DNA of 35,102 nucleotides from contig CAMBUH010000006.1 of NCBI GenBank assembly GCA_945870985.1, positions 1-35,102 on the forward strand, written 5' to 3'. The notes below the pieces were generated by a model that worked only from the letters and a program-made list of their open reading frames with translations, did not search any database and was not told the origin of the DNA. Within the stretch, counting starts at the first letter, position 1, and every line of letters starts with the position of its first letter. Of the stretch, positions 25,118-33,031 are shown piece by piece. This DNA is from Chitinophaga pinensis (GTDB lineage Bacteria; Bacteroidota; Bacteroidia; Chitinophagales; Chitinophagaceae). The position numbers and the translations under genes were made by a program.

Positions 25118-26927
25118 ATTTATAACCCTCCCTAAAATAGTTCACTACTAAGGCAGCTTTAGATTTGCCAATAATTTTCTCCAATGATTCGGGTGATTGT
25201 AGCTGAACCTTTTTTACTGATTTAAATGCAGTTAATAATTGTTGAGCTGTTTGTGATCCAATTCCCGGAATTTTTTCTAATCCGTTGGTAAAAGTTCCCT
25301 TAGAGCGAATATTCCTGTGGAAGCTAATTCCAAAGCGATGTACTTCATCGCGGATAAATCTAATTAGTTTCAAACTGTCGCTATTCCAAGGTAGGCGAAT
25401 AGATTGCTGATCCCCTGCAAAAAATAATTCTTCCTCATTTTTCGCTAACCCAAATACCGTCATTTTACCAATCAATTGCAATGCCCGAATACTCTCTAGG
25501 GCAGCATTCAATTGTCCCTTGCCGCCATCTATAATTACTAATTGCGGCAGTGATTTTTCTTCTTCTAATAATCTTTTATACCTGCGATATACTACTTCTT
25601 TCATGGTAGCAAAATCATCAATGCCAGTTACAGTTTTTACGTGATAGTGCCGGTAATTTTCTTTGCTGGGTATGCCCTCTAAAAAACATACCATGGCCGA
25701 TACCGGATAACTGCCTTGAAAATGACTATTATCAAAACATTCTATATGTGCTGGTAAGGCGGGTAATTGCAAAAGTGCTTGCAGCTCGCTTAATACTTGC
25801 TTTTTTTCTGCGGCTGATTTACCTACTGGCTGCCATAATTTTTTTTGCTGAATTTCCTGTTGATAGTAATTCACATTCTTCAGGGATAAATCTAATAGCT
25901 TTTTCTTTTCTCCAGCTTTTGGAACCAGGATAGTAATATCTTTTTCCGGATAATTAATCGGAAACGGCACCACACATTCAGCTGCCATGCTGTTAAATTG
26001 CGCTCGCATGTTGGCAAGGGCAAAAATCAATACTTCTTCATCTGATTCTTCTAATTGAATTTCCAACTGAACAGTATGCGTTTGAACTATGGTTCCATGT
26101 TGAACCATCAGATAGTTTACATAAGCGGTAGACTGGTCTCGCAATAAAGAAAACACATCTAGGTTTCCGTGTAATTTGCCTACAATCACCGATGATGCCT
26201 GATACGCTTCCAGCGAATTGATTTTTTTTTGCCAAATAGCTGCCTCTTCAAAACGCAACAACTCGCTGCTTTCTTTTAGCTGTTTTTTAAGATAGGCAGT
26301 TACCGGCTGCAAATTCCCTTTGATGATATTTTTTACCTGCAATAGATCTTCTGAATAGGCTGCTGCTGATTGTTTTTTTTCGCAGGGACCTTTACAATTA
26401 CCCAGATGATATTCTAAGCATACTTTATATTGGCCCTTTTCAATTTTGTCGGCAGCAAGATTAAGGGTGCAGGTTCTTAGTGGAATCATTTGTTTAACCA
26501 GTTCTAACAACTGCCGCACGCTGCCAACAGATGCGAAAGGTCCGATATACTCCGACCCATCGGCATATTTTCTGCGGGTAAGGAATACACGGGGAAATGG
26601 TTCTTTTTTGATTACTATATACGGGTATGTTTTATCGTCTTTAAGCAGAATATTATACCGGGGGTGATACTGTTTAATCAGGGCATTTTCTAGCAGAAAA
26701 GCATCTTGTTCCGAATCTACAATCGTAAATTCTATCCGATCAATTCTTTTTACCAGTTCATGGGTTTTATAGGTAGTAAATGTATTGGTAAAATACGAGG
26801 ATACCCTTTTCCGGAGATCCTTTGCTTTGCCTACATACAATAACTGATTTTCCGCATTGTAATATTTGTAGATACCCGGCTCGTGCGGAAGTCCCAGGGC
26901 AATCGGGGCAAATTCTTCCTGCGTCAT
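25116..26927 (-). CDS. uvrC: Excinuclease ABC subunit C
   Basis: 603 aa; PGIYKYYNAENQLLYVGKAKDLRKRVSSYF GIY-YIG domain, ECFDNSHFQGSYPVSAMVCF, VIIDGGKGQLNAA, EKIPGIGSQTAQQLL. Confidence 0.95.
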   Translation of the reverse strand: MTQEEFAPIALGLPHEPGIYKYYNAENQLLYVGKAKDLRKRVSSYFTNTFTTYKTHELVKRIDRIEFTIVDSEQDAFLLENALIKQYHPRYNILLKDDKTYPYIVIKKEPFPRVFLTRRKYADGSEYIGPFASVGSVRQLLELVKQMIPLRTCTLNLAADKIEKGQYKVCLEYHLGNCKGPCEKKQSAAAYSEDLLQVKNIIKGNLQPVTAYLKKQLKESSELLRFEEAAIWQKKINSLEAYQASSVIVGKLHGNLDVFSLLRDQSTAYVNYLMVQHGTIVQTHTVQLEIQLEESDEEVLIFALANMRAQFNSMAAECVVPFPINYPEKDITILVPKAGEKKKLLDLSLKNVNYYQQEIQQKKLWQPVGKSAAEKKQVLSELQALLQLPALPAHIECFDNSHFQGSYPVSAMVCFLEGIPSKENYRHYHVKTVTGIDDFATMKEVVYRRYKRLLEEEKSLPQLVIIDGGKGQLNAALESIRALQLIGKMTVFGLAKNEEELFFAGDQQSIRLPWNSDSLKLIRFIRDEVHRFGISFHRNIRSKGTFTNGLEKIPGIGSQTAQQLLTAFKSVKKVQLQSPESLEKIIGKSKAALVVNYFREGYK

Positions 26928-27517
26928 AACGGGGTATTTTTTTCATGTTCCCAACTTACATCTATTATTTCTGTGTTGGCAGTTCCTGCTTTATCGGTTT
27001 TGGTTCTGCTAATTAAGAATCCTTTATTGGTTCTCCAACTCAGGTGTTCGTTAACCGAAGTGTCGGCTATTTCGTAACTACACTGTATGTTTATTCTTTT
27101 TACCAAACGGTTCTGATCGTTCAGCAGGATATCTGTATATTCAAAAGCGGCTTGTTCGGGCTTTAGTGGCTGATAGGTAAGTGTATAACTGCTGGTACTT
27201 AAATCATGTAGGATACTTTCTTTGTAGAGTTGCTTCTCTTTGGTGAATTGGGTTAGCAAACTGTCGAATAATCCGCAAAAGAGCAAAAAAGAATCTCTCC
27301 CCAGGCTATGAATGCTGGTCTGTTGATTTCTGGTATATCGAAAGGTACGGGGTAAATTACTCAAATCGGCATCTTCAATCTGCCCATGAATAAAATGTGC
27401 AATCGGATAAAAGGAGGCGGTATCTGCTAGTGCCTGCACAGAACCCACTTTCCCTGATTTTTGCTTGCATCCTGCCCACACCATTACAAATGCGATAAAT
27501 ATTATCCAGCCTTTCAT
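26924..27517 (-). CDS. Putative lipoprotein of unknown function
   Basis: 197 aa; signal peptide with lipobox-like VWAGC; stop codon overlaps the uvrC start (ATGA). Confidence 0.7.
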   Translation of the reverse strand: MKGWIIFIAFVMVWAGCKQKSGKVGSVQALADTASFYPIAHFIHGQIEDADLSNLPRTFRYTRNQQTSIHSLGRDSFLLFCGLFDSLLTQFTKEKQLYKESILHDLSTSSYTLTYQPLKPEQAAFEYTDILLNDQNRLVKRINIQCSYEIADTSVNEHLSWRTNKGFLISRTKTDKAGTANTEIIDVSWEHEKNTPL

Positions 27518-27569: not shown

Positions 27570-29018
27570 TTATTTGTATGGGCGGGTAACGCTAAAACGA
27601 ATACCGTAATCAATCAGATTCTCCCGAACCGGGTAGAGGTTAGAGTAGGTAGGAAGGTTTTGATATCTCACTTGCGGACCTACTGAGAAGGTGGCTGTTC
27701 GGGTTTGATACGTTAGGTTAATGCCTGCACCGGTATTAATATTCCATTTGCGCAACAAATCCTTTCCTTCGGTATAGTGCTTGTAATCAGAAGAGATCAG
27801 CCAGGTATTGGATTGTAAAGTAAAGGTAGGTTGCACAGAAGCTTCGGCTGTTAGTCCCCATTTTTTACCATCCAGCACTTTCCATTGTATACCCACAGGA
27901 GCAGATATTTGATACATGCTGTTGCTGAGGGTAGTTGCCCGATAGCCGGCATTATTGTTATACGGGGAATAAAAACTAATCGTTTCAACTCCTCTGTTAT
28001 TAATCAGCGACATAGAAGCCAAATCTCGTGTTCGTGTTTCAAAGGTTTCAATTTCGTATCTGCGCAAATTCAGTTGTAAACCTGTGGTTAACTGAAAGCG
28101 CTTGGAAAGACTGTATAAAATGGAAAAGCCTAGTTCTAGTCCTAATGCCGGCCGATGCCGAACTACTTCATTCACACCACTATTCAAATTACTGGTTAGG
28201 GGCAGATTGGCTGCGGAGGAGCTGTTGGTAGCAGTGGTTTGAATTAATTCTTTCAGCTTATAATCAGTTAATTGGCGGAAGCTGATAGAAGGGGTTGCAT
28301 ACACTTGAAAGCCAATCCTTGAACTTTTGTGTTGAATAGGCGTGTTACCTACAAAGGGGAAATCCTTCAAATACTCATCCGTAGATTGTTGAAGATTCCC
28401 TTTTGCATTTGCCATTTTTCGCAATTCATTTGCAGGGTTGGCAGTATTTTCTTCTGCGTCGGCAGTTGAATCGTATAAGATAGATTCGGTAGTAATGGGT
28501 GTTAGAATAGTAGCCGATACCGTTTGAGATTCATTAACAGGTAATGCCAATGGAGTAGACTGCCCCAAAGTAAGGGTTGCCTGTTTTTCTGGTGTGAAAA
28601 GTTCCCTAGGTGCAACAGCCGGTTCAATAACAGCGTGGTTATAATCAACGGGAGGCTGAATAGCGGCGATGGTTGCCATAGTTAATGCTTCGGGTGCGAT
28701 ACTTTTCAGGTAATGATTATTTTTTTCATCCGGCGATAATTCATTTTGCTCGGAAGGGCTTGCTGAGGCTGAGACGGTTTGCTGACTTACGGGTGGCAGA
28801 ATCAGGATGTGGGTATTGGGTGTTCGGTTGAGCAGGGTAGAAATGGTAAGTGCTGAAATTATAAATAGAGAGATAAATGTGAGGGCTGGCCATGATTGTT
28901 TGCCGTGCAACTCTGTTCTGATCTTGTTCCACACAGGGTCAGACGGATACATCCGGTGCGATTTTACTTCCTCTTGTAAAAACTGCTCAAAATCTTCTTG
29001 TTGGTACTTGTTTTTCAT
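27570..29018 (-). CDS. Membrane-anchored anti-sigma-like protein with C-terminal outer-membrane beta-barrel-like domain
   Basis: 482 aa; N-terminal soluble segment FEQFLQEEVKSHRMYPSDPVWNKIRTELHGKQ, one TM (WPALTFISLFIISALTIST), long Ser/Thr/Ala/Pro-rich linker, then alternating beta-strand C-terminus; directly downstream of an ECF sigma gene. Confidence 0.65.
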   Translation of the reverse strand: MKNKYQQEDFEQFLQEEVKSHRMYPSDPVWNKIRTELHGKQSWPALTFISLFIISALTISTLLNRTPNTHILILPPVSQQTVSASASPSEQNELSPDEKNNHYLKSIAPEALTMATIAAIQPPVDYNHAVIEPAVAPRELFTPEKQATLTLGQSTPLALPVNESQTVSATILTPITTESILYDSTADAEENTANPANELRKMANAKGNLQQSTDEYLKDFPFVGNTPIQHKSSRIGFQVYATPSISFRQLTDYKLKELIQTTATNSSSAANLPLTSNLNSGVNEVVRHRPALGLELGFSILYSLSKRFQLTTGLQLNLRRYEIETFETRTRDLASMSLINNRGVETISFYSPYNNNAGYRATTLSNSMYQISAPVGIQWKVLDGKKWGLTAEASVQPTFTLQSNTWLISSDYKHYTEGKDLLRKWNINTGAGINLTYQTRTATFSVGPQVRYQNLPTYSNLYPVRENLIDYGIRFSVTRPYK

Positions 29019-29612: not shown

Positions 29613-29775
29613 GAGGGTAAAATTGTTAACCCTAAATATAGACAATTTTTCGGTTGTTTCGCTGCATTTGGAGATGGCTCACTTGCAAATAATATATAAT
29701 ATTAATGTTTTTTTTTGGTATCAGGCAACAATAAGTAATTTTAAAGTATCTTAAACGTTAATTAGATTTAAGACT

Positions 29776-31440
29776 ATGAGCCGGCGAAAATTTATTTCGC
29801 AAATAATTAAACCAGCTTCTGTTCAGGAAGCCCCGCCTCCACCTCCCGGAGGTGGATTAACGCCTTATACGGGGGTATGGACTACCGATCAGGTAATTCA
29901 TATGCTTAAAAGAACCCAGTTTGGAGCTCGGCCTGAGGACATTCAATATTTTGCTGCCAGAACTTTTTCGCAGGCGATGGATGAAATTCTGCAACCTACG
30001 GCACCTGCACCGGCACCTCCGGTAAAAGATTATGTTCCATCTGCGAATGTTCTTAAGCCCGATACCAATGTGGCTGCCGGAACAACTTGGGTAAATGATA
30101 TTGGGGCTGATGGGGCTTTAAACGGCAACCGGATTTTATCTTTTCAAAAATGGTGGGTTGGTAACTTAATCAATCAGGATAGAAGTATTCGAGAAAAAAT
30201 GATTTTATTCTGGCACAATCATTTTGCCACCGAAGCAGACACAATCGGTAATCCAATTTATGTATATCGACATCATCAGGTTCTACGCAATAATGCCCTT
30301 GGTAATTTTAAGGCATTAACCCGCGCCATTACATTGGATCCGGGAATGCTAGTGTATTTGAATGGACAATTAAATACACTCAATGCTCCCGATGAAAATT
30401 ATGGTAGGGAATTACAAGAACTTTTTTGTTGTGGAAAAGGGCCGGAGTCAAAATATACAGAAGATGACGTAAAAGCTGCTGCCCGCGTATTAACTGGTTG
30501 GCGAATAAATGCTTCCACTGCCACCTCTTTTTTTGACATTAATCGGCACGATAAGAGTTCGAAAAAGTTTTCTTCATTTTACAACAACGCCACCATTGCT
30601 GGCCGCAGTTCCGCTACTGCAGGCGATCTGGAACTGGATGATATGCTGAATATGATTTTTGCCACGAATGAAGTAAGCAAATACATTTGCAGAAGATTGT
30701 ATCGTTGGTTTATTTATTATGATATAGATGCCACTGTAGAGGCTACCATCATCACCCCGCTTGCCAATATATTTGTTCAGAATAATTACGAAATATTGCC
30801 GGTGCTGCAAGCACTCCTGAAAAGCGAGCACTTTTTTAATTCACTCACAGTTGGATGTCAGATAAAAAGTCCTATAGACCTGATAGTAGGATTATGCCGG
30901 GAGTTTGCCATTGCACTTCCTCCTGCATCCGATTATACCACTAACTATGGTATTTATAATTATTTTTTTAACTTGGCAACCGGCATGCAGCAACGAATTG
31001 GTGATCCTCCGGATGTAAGCGGCTGGAAAGCCTACTATCAAGAACCGCAATTTTATGAGGTTTGGATAAATAGTGACACCTTACCTCGGCGCATCCAGTT
31101 TTCCGACATCATGATTGTGAATGGATATACCCTCAATGGTTTTGTTACAAAAATCAATCAAGTTGAATGGGTAAAGATGCTACCAAAGCCCGCAGATCCC
31201 AATGAATTAATCAGTGATATCACCTATCGGTTATTGCGAATAGATATTTCAGCCGCCTCTAAGCAGCAATTGAAAAGAGATATCTTACTGGGAGGACAAT
31301 CGGATGATCATTATTGGACAGATGCCTGGAACCTTTATTTGTCAACCCCGGGAAATACTAACAATACAAATACCGTTAGAAATCGGTTACGTGATTTGAT
31401 AAAGTATATTATGAATTTACCAGAATATCAATTGTGTTAA
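29776..31440 (+). CDS. DUF1800 domain-containing protein
   Basis: 554 aa; HMLKRTQFGARPEDIQYF, REKMILFWHNHFAT, NYGRELQELFCCGKG..YTEDDVKAAARVLTGW are DUF1800 hallmarks. Confidence 0.87.
   Translation: MSRRKFISQIIKPASVQEAPPPPPGGGLTPYTGVWTTDQVIHMLKRTQFGARPEDIQYFAARTFSQAMDEILQPTAPAPAPPVKDYVPSANVLKPDTNVAAGTTWVNDIGADGALNGNRILSFQKWWVGNLINQDRSIREKMILFWHNHFATEADTIGNPIYVYRHHQVLRNNALGNFKALTRAITLDPGMLVYLNGQLNTLNAPDENYGRELQELFCCGKGPESKYTEDDVKAAARVLTGWRINASTATSFFDINRHDKSSKKFSSFYNNATIAGRSSATAGDLELDDMLNMIFATNEVSKYICRRLYRWFIYYDIDATVEATIITPLANIFVQNNYEILPVLQALLKSEHFFNSLTVGCQIKSPIDLIVGLCREFAIALPPASDYTTNYGIYNYFFNLATGMQQRIGDPPDVSGWKAYYQEPQFYEVWINSDTLPRRIQFSDIMIVNGYTLNGFVTKINQVEWVKMLPKPADPNELISDITYRLLRIDISAASKQQLKRDILLGGQSDDHYWTDAWNLYLSTPGNTNNTNTVRNRLRDLIKYIMNLPEYQLC
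29838..29856. repeat. Perfect inverted repeat TCCACCTC-CCG-GAGGTGGA inside the DUF1800 gene
   Basis: 8-bp arms with 3-nt spacer, in the segment coding PPPPPGGG. Confidence 0.9.
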
Positions 31441-31462
31441 TCCAACACAGAAAATCACCTTC

Positions 31463-33031
31463 ATGAAAAGAAGATCTTTTTTACAAAAAACTTTGCCAGC
31501 CGGGGTGCTTTTGCCATCACTGCTGAATGGTTTTTCTTTTCGTGCACTTGGAATGGATTCTCCGGAATTATCTTCCTTATTACTGCCGGTTACCGAAACT
31601 GATCATGTGTTGGTAATTGTTCAGCTAAATGGAGGTAATGATGGATTAAACATGGTGGTGCCGCTCGAAAATTTCAGTAATTATGTAAATGCGCGTAGCA
31701 ATCTTTATATTCCAGATACGAAAGTATTGCCACTCAACGGCAAAGTTGGTTTACACCCGGCCATGACGGGCTTGGAAAGTTTGTATCAGGAAGGTCAGTT
31801 GAAAGTGATTCACTCCGTGGGATATCCCCAACCTAATTTTTCGCATTTTCGTGCTACGGATATCTGGATGAGTGCCAGCGACAGTTCTACCATTGTTAAC
31901 AGCGGCTGGGCCGGACGATATTTGAATTATGAATATCCCAATTTTCCGAATGGATATCCCAATGCAAGCATGACTGATCCACTGGCTATTCAAATTGGGT
32001 CTGTTACCTCGTTAACTTTTCAGGGACCGGCTGTTAGCATGGGCATGAGTATTAGCAGTGCTACCAATTTTTACAACCTTGTGAATGGGGTTACCGACCC
32101 AGCTCCCAATACTCCGGCAGGCAAGGAATTGACATATGTAAGAATGGTTTCTCAGCAAACGCAGCAATATGCTACGTCTATCAAAGCGGCAGCTGCTAAG
32201 GTAACCAAACAGGTAACCTATCCCACGGCGAATTCATTGGCCGACCAACTGAAAATAGTAGCCCGTTTAATTGCGGGTGGTTTAAAAACCAGGGTTTATA
32301 TGGTTAATTATGGGGGATTTGATACCCATGCTGTTCAGGTGAATAGCAATGACACCACTACCGGTTCTCATGCTACCCTGTTAAAAAATGTGAGTAGCGC
32401 TATTAAGGCATTTCAGGATGACTTACGTATGCTGGGTGCCGAAGATCGCGTGGTGGGTATGACGTTTTCTGAATTTGGCCGCCGGGTTAAGAGTAATGGC
32501 AGTATCGGAACAGACCATGGTTCTGCTGCCCCCTGTTTTTTGTTTGGTAAGCATGTAATGGGCGGCGTTTTAGGCGATACTCCCATTATTCCTGCTAATG
32601 CCACCGTAAATGATAACGTCCCATTCCAATACGATTTTAGAAGTGTATATGCTACCCTTTTATCTAAATGGCTTTGTGTAGAAGACCGCGATCTGCAACA
32701 AATCATGCTGAAAAATTTTCAGCAACTCCCACTAATAAATGGTATAGCCTGTAAAAAACCGGTTAATCTTTCCGGTGAACAACTTATCAGTAATTATCCC
32801 AATCCCTTTACCAGCTCAACGGTTATTACTTTTAAAACGGCGGGAGGGCATACACTTATTCAGGTGATGGATACCTCGGGTAGGGTAGTGGCAAACCTTA
32901 CCGATAAAGAATATGCCCCCGGCTCCTATACGGTTACATTCAACAGCGGGTTTATGCCCAGCGGGGTTTATTATGCAAGGCTACAGAATATGGCTACTCA
33001 GCAAGTGCGGCCGATGCTGAAAGTGCGCTAG
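31463..33031 (+). CDS. DUF1501 domain-containing protein with T9SS type A C-terminal sorting domain
   Basis: 522 aa; KRRSFLQKTLPAGVLLPSLL Tat-like leader, VLVIVQLNGGNDGLNMVVPLENF, MTFSEFGRRVKSNGSIGTDHGSAAPCFLFG; C-terminus NYPNPFTSSTVITFKTAGGHTLIQVMDTSGRVV..PSGVYYARL resembles a Por_Secre_tail. Confidence 0.9.
   Translation: MKRRSFLQKTLPAGVLLPSLLNGFSFRALGMDSPELSSLLLPVTETDHVLVIVQLNGGNDGLNMVVPLENFSNYVNARSNLYIPDTKVLPLNGKVGLHPAMTGLESLYQEGQLKVIHSVGYPQPNFSHFRATDIWMSASDSSTIVNSGWAGRYLNYEYPNFPNGYPNASMTDPLAIQIGSVTSLTFQGPAVSMGMSISSATNFYNLVNGVTDPAPNTPAGKELTYVRMVSQQTQQYATSIKAAAAKVTKQVTYPTANSLADQLKIVARLIAGGLKTRVYMVNYGGFDTHAVQVNSNDTTTGSHATLLKNVSSAIKAFQDDLRMLGAEDRVVGMTFSEFGRRVKSNGSIGTDHGSAAPCFLFGKHVMGGVLGDTPIIPANATVNDNVPFQYDFRSVYATLLSKWLCVEDRDLQQIMLKNFQQLPLINGIACKKPVNLSGEQLISNYPNPFTSSTVITFKTAGGHTLIQVMDTSGRVVANLTDKEYAPGSYTVTFNSGFMPSGVYYARLQNMATQQVRPMLKVR

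Follow-up and report, generated by a model that had tools for sequence, protein, structure and literature searches.

A protein predicted to span both membranes, very probably a Dma/Reo-type anti-sigma factor, encoded next to an ECF sigma factor in Chitinophaga pinensis

The window, by which we mean the whole 35,102-nucleotide stretch of Chitinophaga pinensis DNA that was analysed (contig CAMBUH010000006.1, positions 1 to 35,102), carries on its reverse strand an intact open reading frame at 27570-29018(-) that opens with ATG and encodes 482 amino acids. The gene for an ECF sigma factor ends 24 nt upstream of it, in the same direction and the same frame. In the order of transcription, the locus comprises the following features:

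29641..29665, (-) strand: GCAGC-N16-TGTC (-35/-10), predicted promoter of ECF type for the sigma-dma operon, conserved in relatives
29614..29633, (-) strand: possible leader hairpin, a predicted small stem directly before the sigma start codon
29043..29612, (-) strand: ECF sigma factor of 189 amino acids, the Das-like partner (Pfam; an orthologue lies upstream of every close homologue)
28890..29018, (-) strand: residues 1-43, cytosolic segment predicted to bind the sigma factor (conservation, profile matches, AlphaFold helices)
28827..28889, (-) strand: residues 44-64, single transmembrane helix (hydropathy and AlphaFold)
28317..28826, (-) strand: residues 65-234, disordered periplasmic tether (low pLDDT, composition, little conservation)
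27573..28316, (-) strand: residues 235-482, eight-stranded outer-membrane-type beta-barrel (PF13568, AlphaFold, Foldseek)
26924..27517, (-) strand: small putative lipoprotein of no recognised family, between dma and uvrC (start lipobox-like by eye)

A first-pass annotation had read the 482-residue protein as an anti-sigma-like segment of about 40 residues, one transmembrane helix, a linker of very roughly 170 residues and a barrel-like C-terminal half, and all four parts were recovered. The N-terminal segment is a helix-W-helix with the motif HRMYPSDxVWxxIRxELHGxxxWPAL. Hydropathy detects one hydrophobic segment only, at about residues 41-66, and an AlphaFold model of the protein alone, run with 48 natural homologues, places helices at 8-20, 27-38 and 44-64 (the last being the transmembrane helix), followed by the disordered tether and the barrel as proposed. 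The tether measures about 170 residues, 62% of which are P, S, T, N, Q, A or E, with a pLDDT below 50 at 68-95, 125-194 and 206-212. The barrel strands span residues 235 to 480, mostly at a pLDDT above 90, and number eight if 360-383 is taken as one bent strand; the model has long outer loops. Residues 280-451 match the Pfam family OMP_b-brl_2 (PF13568) at E 2.8e-8, a score above the gathering threshold. For the barrel model, Foldseek returned the outer-membrane barrels NspA, OmpA, OmpW, OprG, OmpT and OpcA, the best-covered targets being the eight-stranded NspA, OmpA, OmpW and OprG (target TM 0.49-0.57), and not the small periplasmic barrel or propeller that the annotation had set against its own idea. 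Searches of the protein with Pfam and NCBIfam gave no anti-sigma domain and the Pfam scan no FecR domain; the zinc anti-sigma site (HxxxCxxC) is absent from the chain, which contains no cysteine at all.

Conservation is distributed unevenly along the protein. The information content per column over 48 relatives is 2.69 bits for the N-terminus, 2.13 for the barrel, 1.55 for the transmembrane helix and about 0.6 for the linker; as the N-terminus is better conserved than the barrel, its conservation is more than chance. Within the otherwise variable tether, residues 99-120 (about 28659-28724) form a conserved island, at 1.04 bits per column in the same 48 relatives, with a pattern of roughly I-x-P-x-x-[LI]-T-x-x-T-[IL]-x-x-I and a predicted short helix. 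This island is a candidate protease or docking site.

The adjacent gene is that of an ECF sigma factor, as had been claimed (Sigma70_r2 1.4e-19, Sigma70_r4_2 4.1e-12), and the pairing is remarkably constant. Of 299 genomes searched within the family, 203 hold a homologue of the anti-sigma gene. In all 30 of the closest relatives the sigma orthologue is the gene immediately before it, 5-55 nt away, and the upstream orthologues of close homologues are about 60-85% identical to the sigma factor of the window. As the annotation had suggested, the N-terminal pattern recurs beside sigma genes in related genomes: an ECF sigma gene lies directly upstream in 84/84 non-redundant loci, distant class-level ones included; these loci are the best-scoring matches of the homologue search and of N-terminal profile searches in the family and the class, and weaker ones could differ. 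Furthermore, among 30 sigma reading frames taken from Bacteroides ihuae and this genome, the top four by similarity to the window sigma (E 2.7e-116 to 7.4e-41, against 4e-17 or worse for all others) were exactly the four that are followed by this N-terminus. Among the B. ihuae sigma factors examined, the Dma-linked ones (about 1e-41) are nearer to the partner than the rest (4e-17 or worse).

Around this pair, no TonB-receptor or FecR neighbour was found among the scanned genes (sigma, DUF1800/DUF1501, small protein and UvrC-like). The putative lipoprotein gene at 26924-27517, a possible operon member, shares four bases with uvrC; most close relatives have a homologue (24-37% identity) in the same position. 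The genes at 29776-33031, DUF1800 and DUF1501, are divergent, and the second has a terminal type IX secretion sorting domain; several relatives retain DUF1800 upstream of their sigma gene. A GldM-like gene (Pfam) is also present in the window, a sign of a Bacteroidota genome.

Two-membrane anti-sigma sensors were described in gut Bacteroides between 2022 and 2026. Dma2 of B. thetaiotaomicron consists of an N-terminal sigma-binding domain, a transmembrane helix, a disordered tether and a C-terminal barrel, and adjoins an ECF21 sigma factor (Dma2/Das2, BT_1558/BT_1559), which it restrains according to mutant data (PMC13088901). Dma1/Das1 of the same species belongs to the same dual membrane-spanning family, as described via PMC13088901. 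In EcfO-Reo of Bacteroides fragilis/Phocaeicola vulgatus (M0N98_03761-03760), the anti-sigma factor is predicted to cross the periplasm and to have a barrel in the outer membrane, mutants of the P. vulgatus pair show that it restrains its sigma factor, and the regulon covers nigD genes and O-antigen length (PMC9308784, PMC13114119).

The N-terminus of the window protein is homologous to that of Dma2. Dma2 orthologues were located through the published operon order BT_1555-1559, using DUF4943 (PF16301), and named Bacteroides sequences were so obtained. Alignment of the whole window family with Dma2 by hhalign was weak (E 3e-4, probability 38-41%), being in register at the N-terminus, and for this reason a broader N-terminal profile was made. 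Built from the window's family and class-level matches only, with no Bacteroides Dma2 in it, this profile recovered 13/13 Bacteroides Dma2 among 1226 reading frames at E 2e-6 to 0.02; the next unrelated reading frame stood at about E 2-3. The part of the protein which had been called anti-sigma-like is a conserved cytosolic helix-W-helix of the Dma2 type.

The same profile family includes variants of this architecture. In some Dma-like anti-sigma factors encoded beside sigma genes, the helix-W-helix motif, roughly 30 residues long, is repeated in tandem before the transmembrane helix, in two to four copies: four in L070 and L082, and two in L073, L076, L083, L087, L154, L155, L157, L158 and L160-L162. 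Such a chain may hold several sigma molecules; our literature search on tandem sigma-binding motifs in Bacteroidota anti-sigma factors returned nothing relevant. A second sigma/Dma-like pair of this genome lies on contigs G000:C30 (L134, L170) and G000:C65 (L095, L171). On the former, the anti-sigma reading frame runs off the contig with two motif copies, and the reading frame that opens the latter has three more, followed by a transmembrane helix and a barrel, which gives at least five in all; the assembly has probably split a single gene at the repeats. Conversely, short proteins of 194-277 amino acids (L065, L072, L074, L075, L084, L085, L088, L089) have the same N-terminus and transmembrane helix, apparently lack the barrel and directly follow ECF sigma genes, and so the sigma-binding module seems to exist in an inner-membrane-only form as well.

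These observations bear on the possibility that the protein is an ordinary outer-membrane protein of the PorT-like type whose unusually long signal peptide is cleaved, and that its sigma neighbour is incidental. The barrel does match a very common Pfam family, the genome holds seven other PF13568 proteins, and those of them that were read and lack this N-terminus begin with apparently ordinary signal peptides. Against this, residues 1-42 are conserved above the level of the barrel, which the n-region of a signal peptide would not need, all 84 loci have the sigma neighbour, and the same N-terminus occurs on barrel-less proteins that are also encoded beside sigma genes. We consider this explanation very improbable and rejected it on the grounds of the best-conserved N-terminus together with the constant sigma neighbour.

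Structure prediction is consistent with an interaction of the two partners. The sigma factor and residues 1-70 were modelled with AlphaFold as one read-through chain, along with natural homologues, some of which read through likewise; the chain is a device to join both partners, and no biological read-through is claimed. The result favours the pairing in part: the N-terminal helices (4-19 and 27-38 in this model) gain confidence, with a pLDDT of 86-94 compared with 71-81 in the anti-sigma protein alone, but of the five models a single one was confident (mean pLDDT 82.8), and the remaining four scored 64-71. The top Foldseek matches of the model are ECF sigma factors from sigma/anti-sigma crystals, with an rmsd of about 6 A for SigW-RsiW, CnrH-CnrY and RpoE-NepR and mostly 21-27 A for RNAP-bound sigma factors, a ranking that a compact sigma factor could produce by itself. 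Judged by its confidence values and Foldseek matches, the model is supporting, not decisive, evidence that residues 1-42 bind the sigma factor.

Binding could in principle serve to activate or deliver the sigma factor instead of restraining it. Inhibition and activation are not distinguishable from sequence, and some FecR-like anti-sigma factors show pro-sigma activity. For the homologues, genetics has given an answer. Deletion of dma2 raises the expression of das2 and its operon, with a phenotype that needs das2 (PMC13088901), and loss of the P. vulgatus homologue switches the regulon on (PMC9308784), which leaves an activating role here with very little probability. An anti-sigma factor whose barrel acts as a sensor domain in the periplasm, as the barrel-less forms beside sigma genes might suggest by showing that the module can function with no part in the outer membrane, is less probable still, given the eight strands, the long outer loops, best matches that are all outer-membrane barrels and published homologues predicted to be anchored in the outer membrane (PMC13088901, PMC9308784).

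Upstream of the pair, 47 of 52 relatives carry a site of the type GCAGC-N16/17-TGTC at a distance of 51-63 nt from the sigma ATG. The match to GCAGC..TGTC is exact in 41 of the 52, and shuffled sequences reach at most 4 for any pair. Since GCAGC-N16-TGTC has the form of an ECF promoter, its conservation before the sigma gene suggests autoregulation, in agreement with the das2 and ecfO operons, which are strongly induced (PMC13088901, PMC9308784). A search of the genome with GCAGC-N16-TGTC returned the operon's own site and five matches near control level, inside reading frames or with no convincing downstream gene, and when an extended pattern was applied to 120 relatives, it was the sigma-dma promoter that recurred, the rest being sporadic with no further recurrent target. 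The leader stem is predicted in the window and in most close relatives (z of -2.5 on average for 47 leaders, against simple mononucleotide shuffles); a sub-group of relatives lacks the hairpin and has a conserved ACAGGCAACCAAA leader instead.

Based on homology, synteny and structure prediction, all of which support the one-chain relay proposed at the outset, we conclude that the protein is very probably a dual membrane-spanning anti-sigma factor of the Dma/Reo type, and we hold it highly probable that a single chain relays a change at the outer membrane to the ECF sigma factor. In this mechanism, the N-terminal 40 residues would bind and hold the sigma factor encoded just upstream, the uncleaved transmembrane helix would anchor the chain in the inner membrane, the tether of roughly 170 residues would cross the periplasm and the eight-stranded barrel is predicted to sit in the outer membrane. 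By analogy with the homologues, the signal would be a change in the outer membrane or at the surface, the likeliest being damage to the envelope or a barrel that fails to assemble, and would travel down the same chain, probably by way of proteolysis near the inner membrane that frees the sigma factor. The freed sigma factor would then transcribe its own operon from GCAGC-N16-TGTC, and also a further set of envelope genes. The genome encodes one site-2-type protease (M50, PF02163), which does not point to this system in particular, as PF02163 is near universal. One elaboration, rather unlikely as a whole, combines two ideas: that the barrel senses its own assembly, and that the tandem motifs of relatives hold several sigma factors and so sharpen the switch. 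Once inserted into the outer membrane, the barrel would hold the tether taut and shield the anti-sigma part; should insertion fail, or the spacing of the two membranes change, the island at 99-120 would be exposed to a protease and the sigma factor freed.

The two-membrane mechanism, with which the first-pass annotation was unfamiliar, is not new, having been published for the homologous Dma1/Das1, Dma2/Das2 and EcfO-Reo (PMC13088901, PMC9308784, PMC13114119). The new details are the ECF-like promoter, the tandem sigma-binding motifs and the barrel-less members. Studies of this design have until now dealt with gut Bacteroidales; our results extend it to a distant environmental family of Bacteroidota, with an apparently conserved orthologue and a stable gene neighbourhood. 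The predicted autoregulatory promoter could serve directly as a reporter in the search for the signal. The most promising by-products are the tandem motifs and the barrel-less forms beside sigma genes, which would make the N-terminal module a general sigma-binding unit of Bacteroidota, an idea that is directly testable.

Compared with known systems, the proposed relay resembles FecI/FecR/TonB-receptor signalling in that an outer-membrane event would be carried to an ECF sigma factor; the difference is that one chain replaces the receptor and FecR, neither of which was detected as a domain or a neighbour. The predicted arrangement of the sigma factor resembles anti-sigma-bound crystals of classical ECF pairs, a class that includes SigW-RsiW, AlgU-MucA and CnrH-CnrY and has no outer-membrane part; unlike these, our protein has no Pfam anti-sigma domain and no cysteine for a zinc site. 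With Dma2/Das2 and Dma1/Das1 (the latter as far as PMC13088901 describes it) the locus shares the four-part order and the sigma-first gene order, and with Dma2/Das2 also a homologous N-terminus and, by HMM rank, probably a sigma factor of the same subgroup. The barrel and linker have diverged from those of Dma2, whose operon continues with DUF4943/DUF4858 genes (L106, L107), whereas here an unrelated small putative lipoprotein gene and then uvrC follow. EcfO-Reo, by its published description, likewise consists of an ECF sigma factor followed by an anti-sigma factor with a predicted outer-membrane barrel; its sigma operon is strongly induced on activation, and the conserved promoter of the window operon would predict the same behaviour here.
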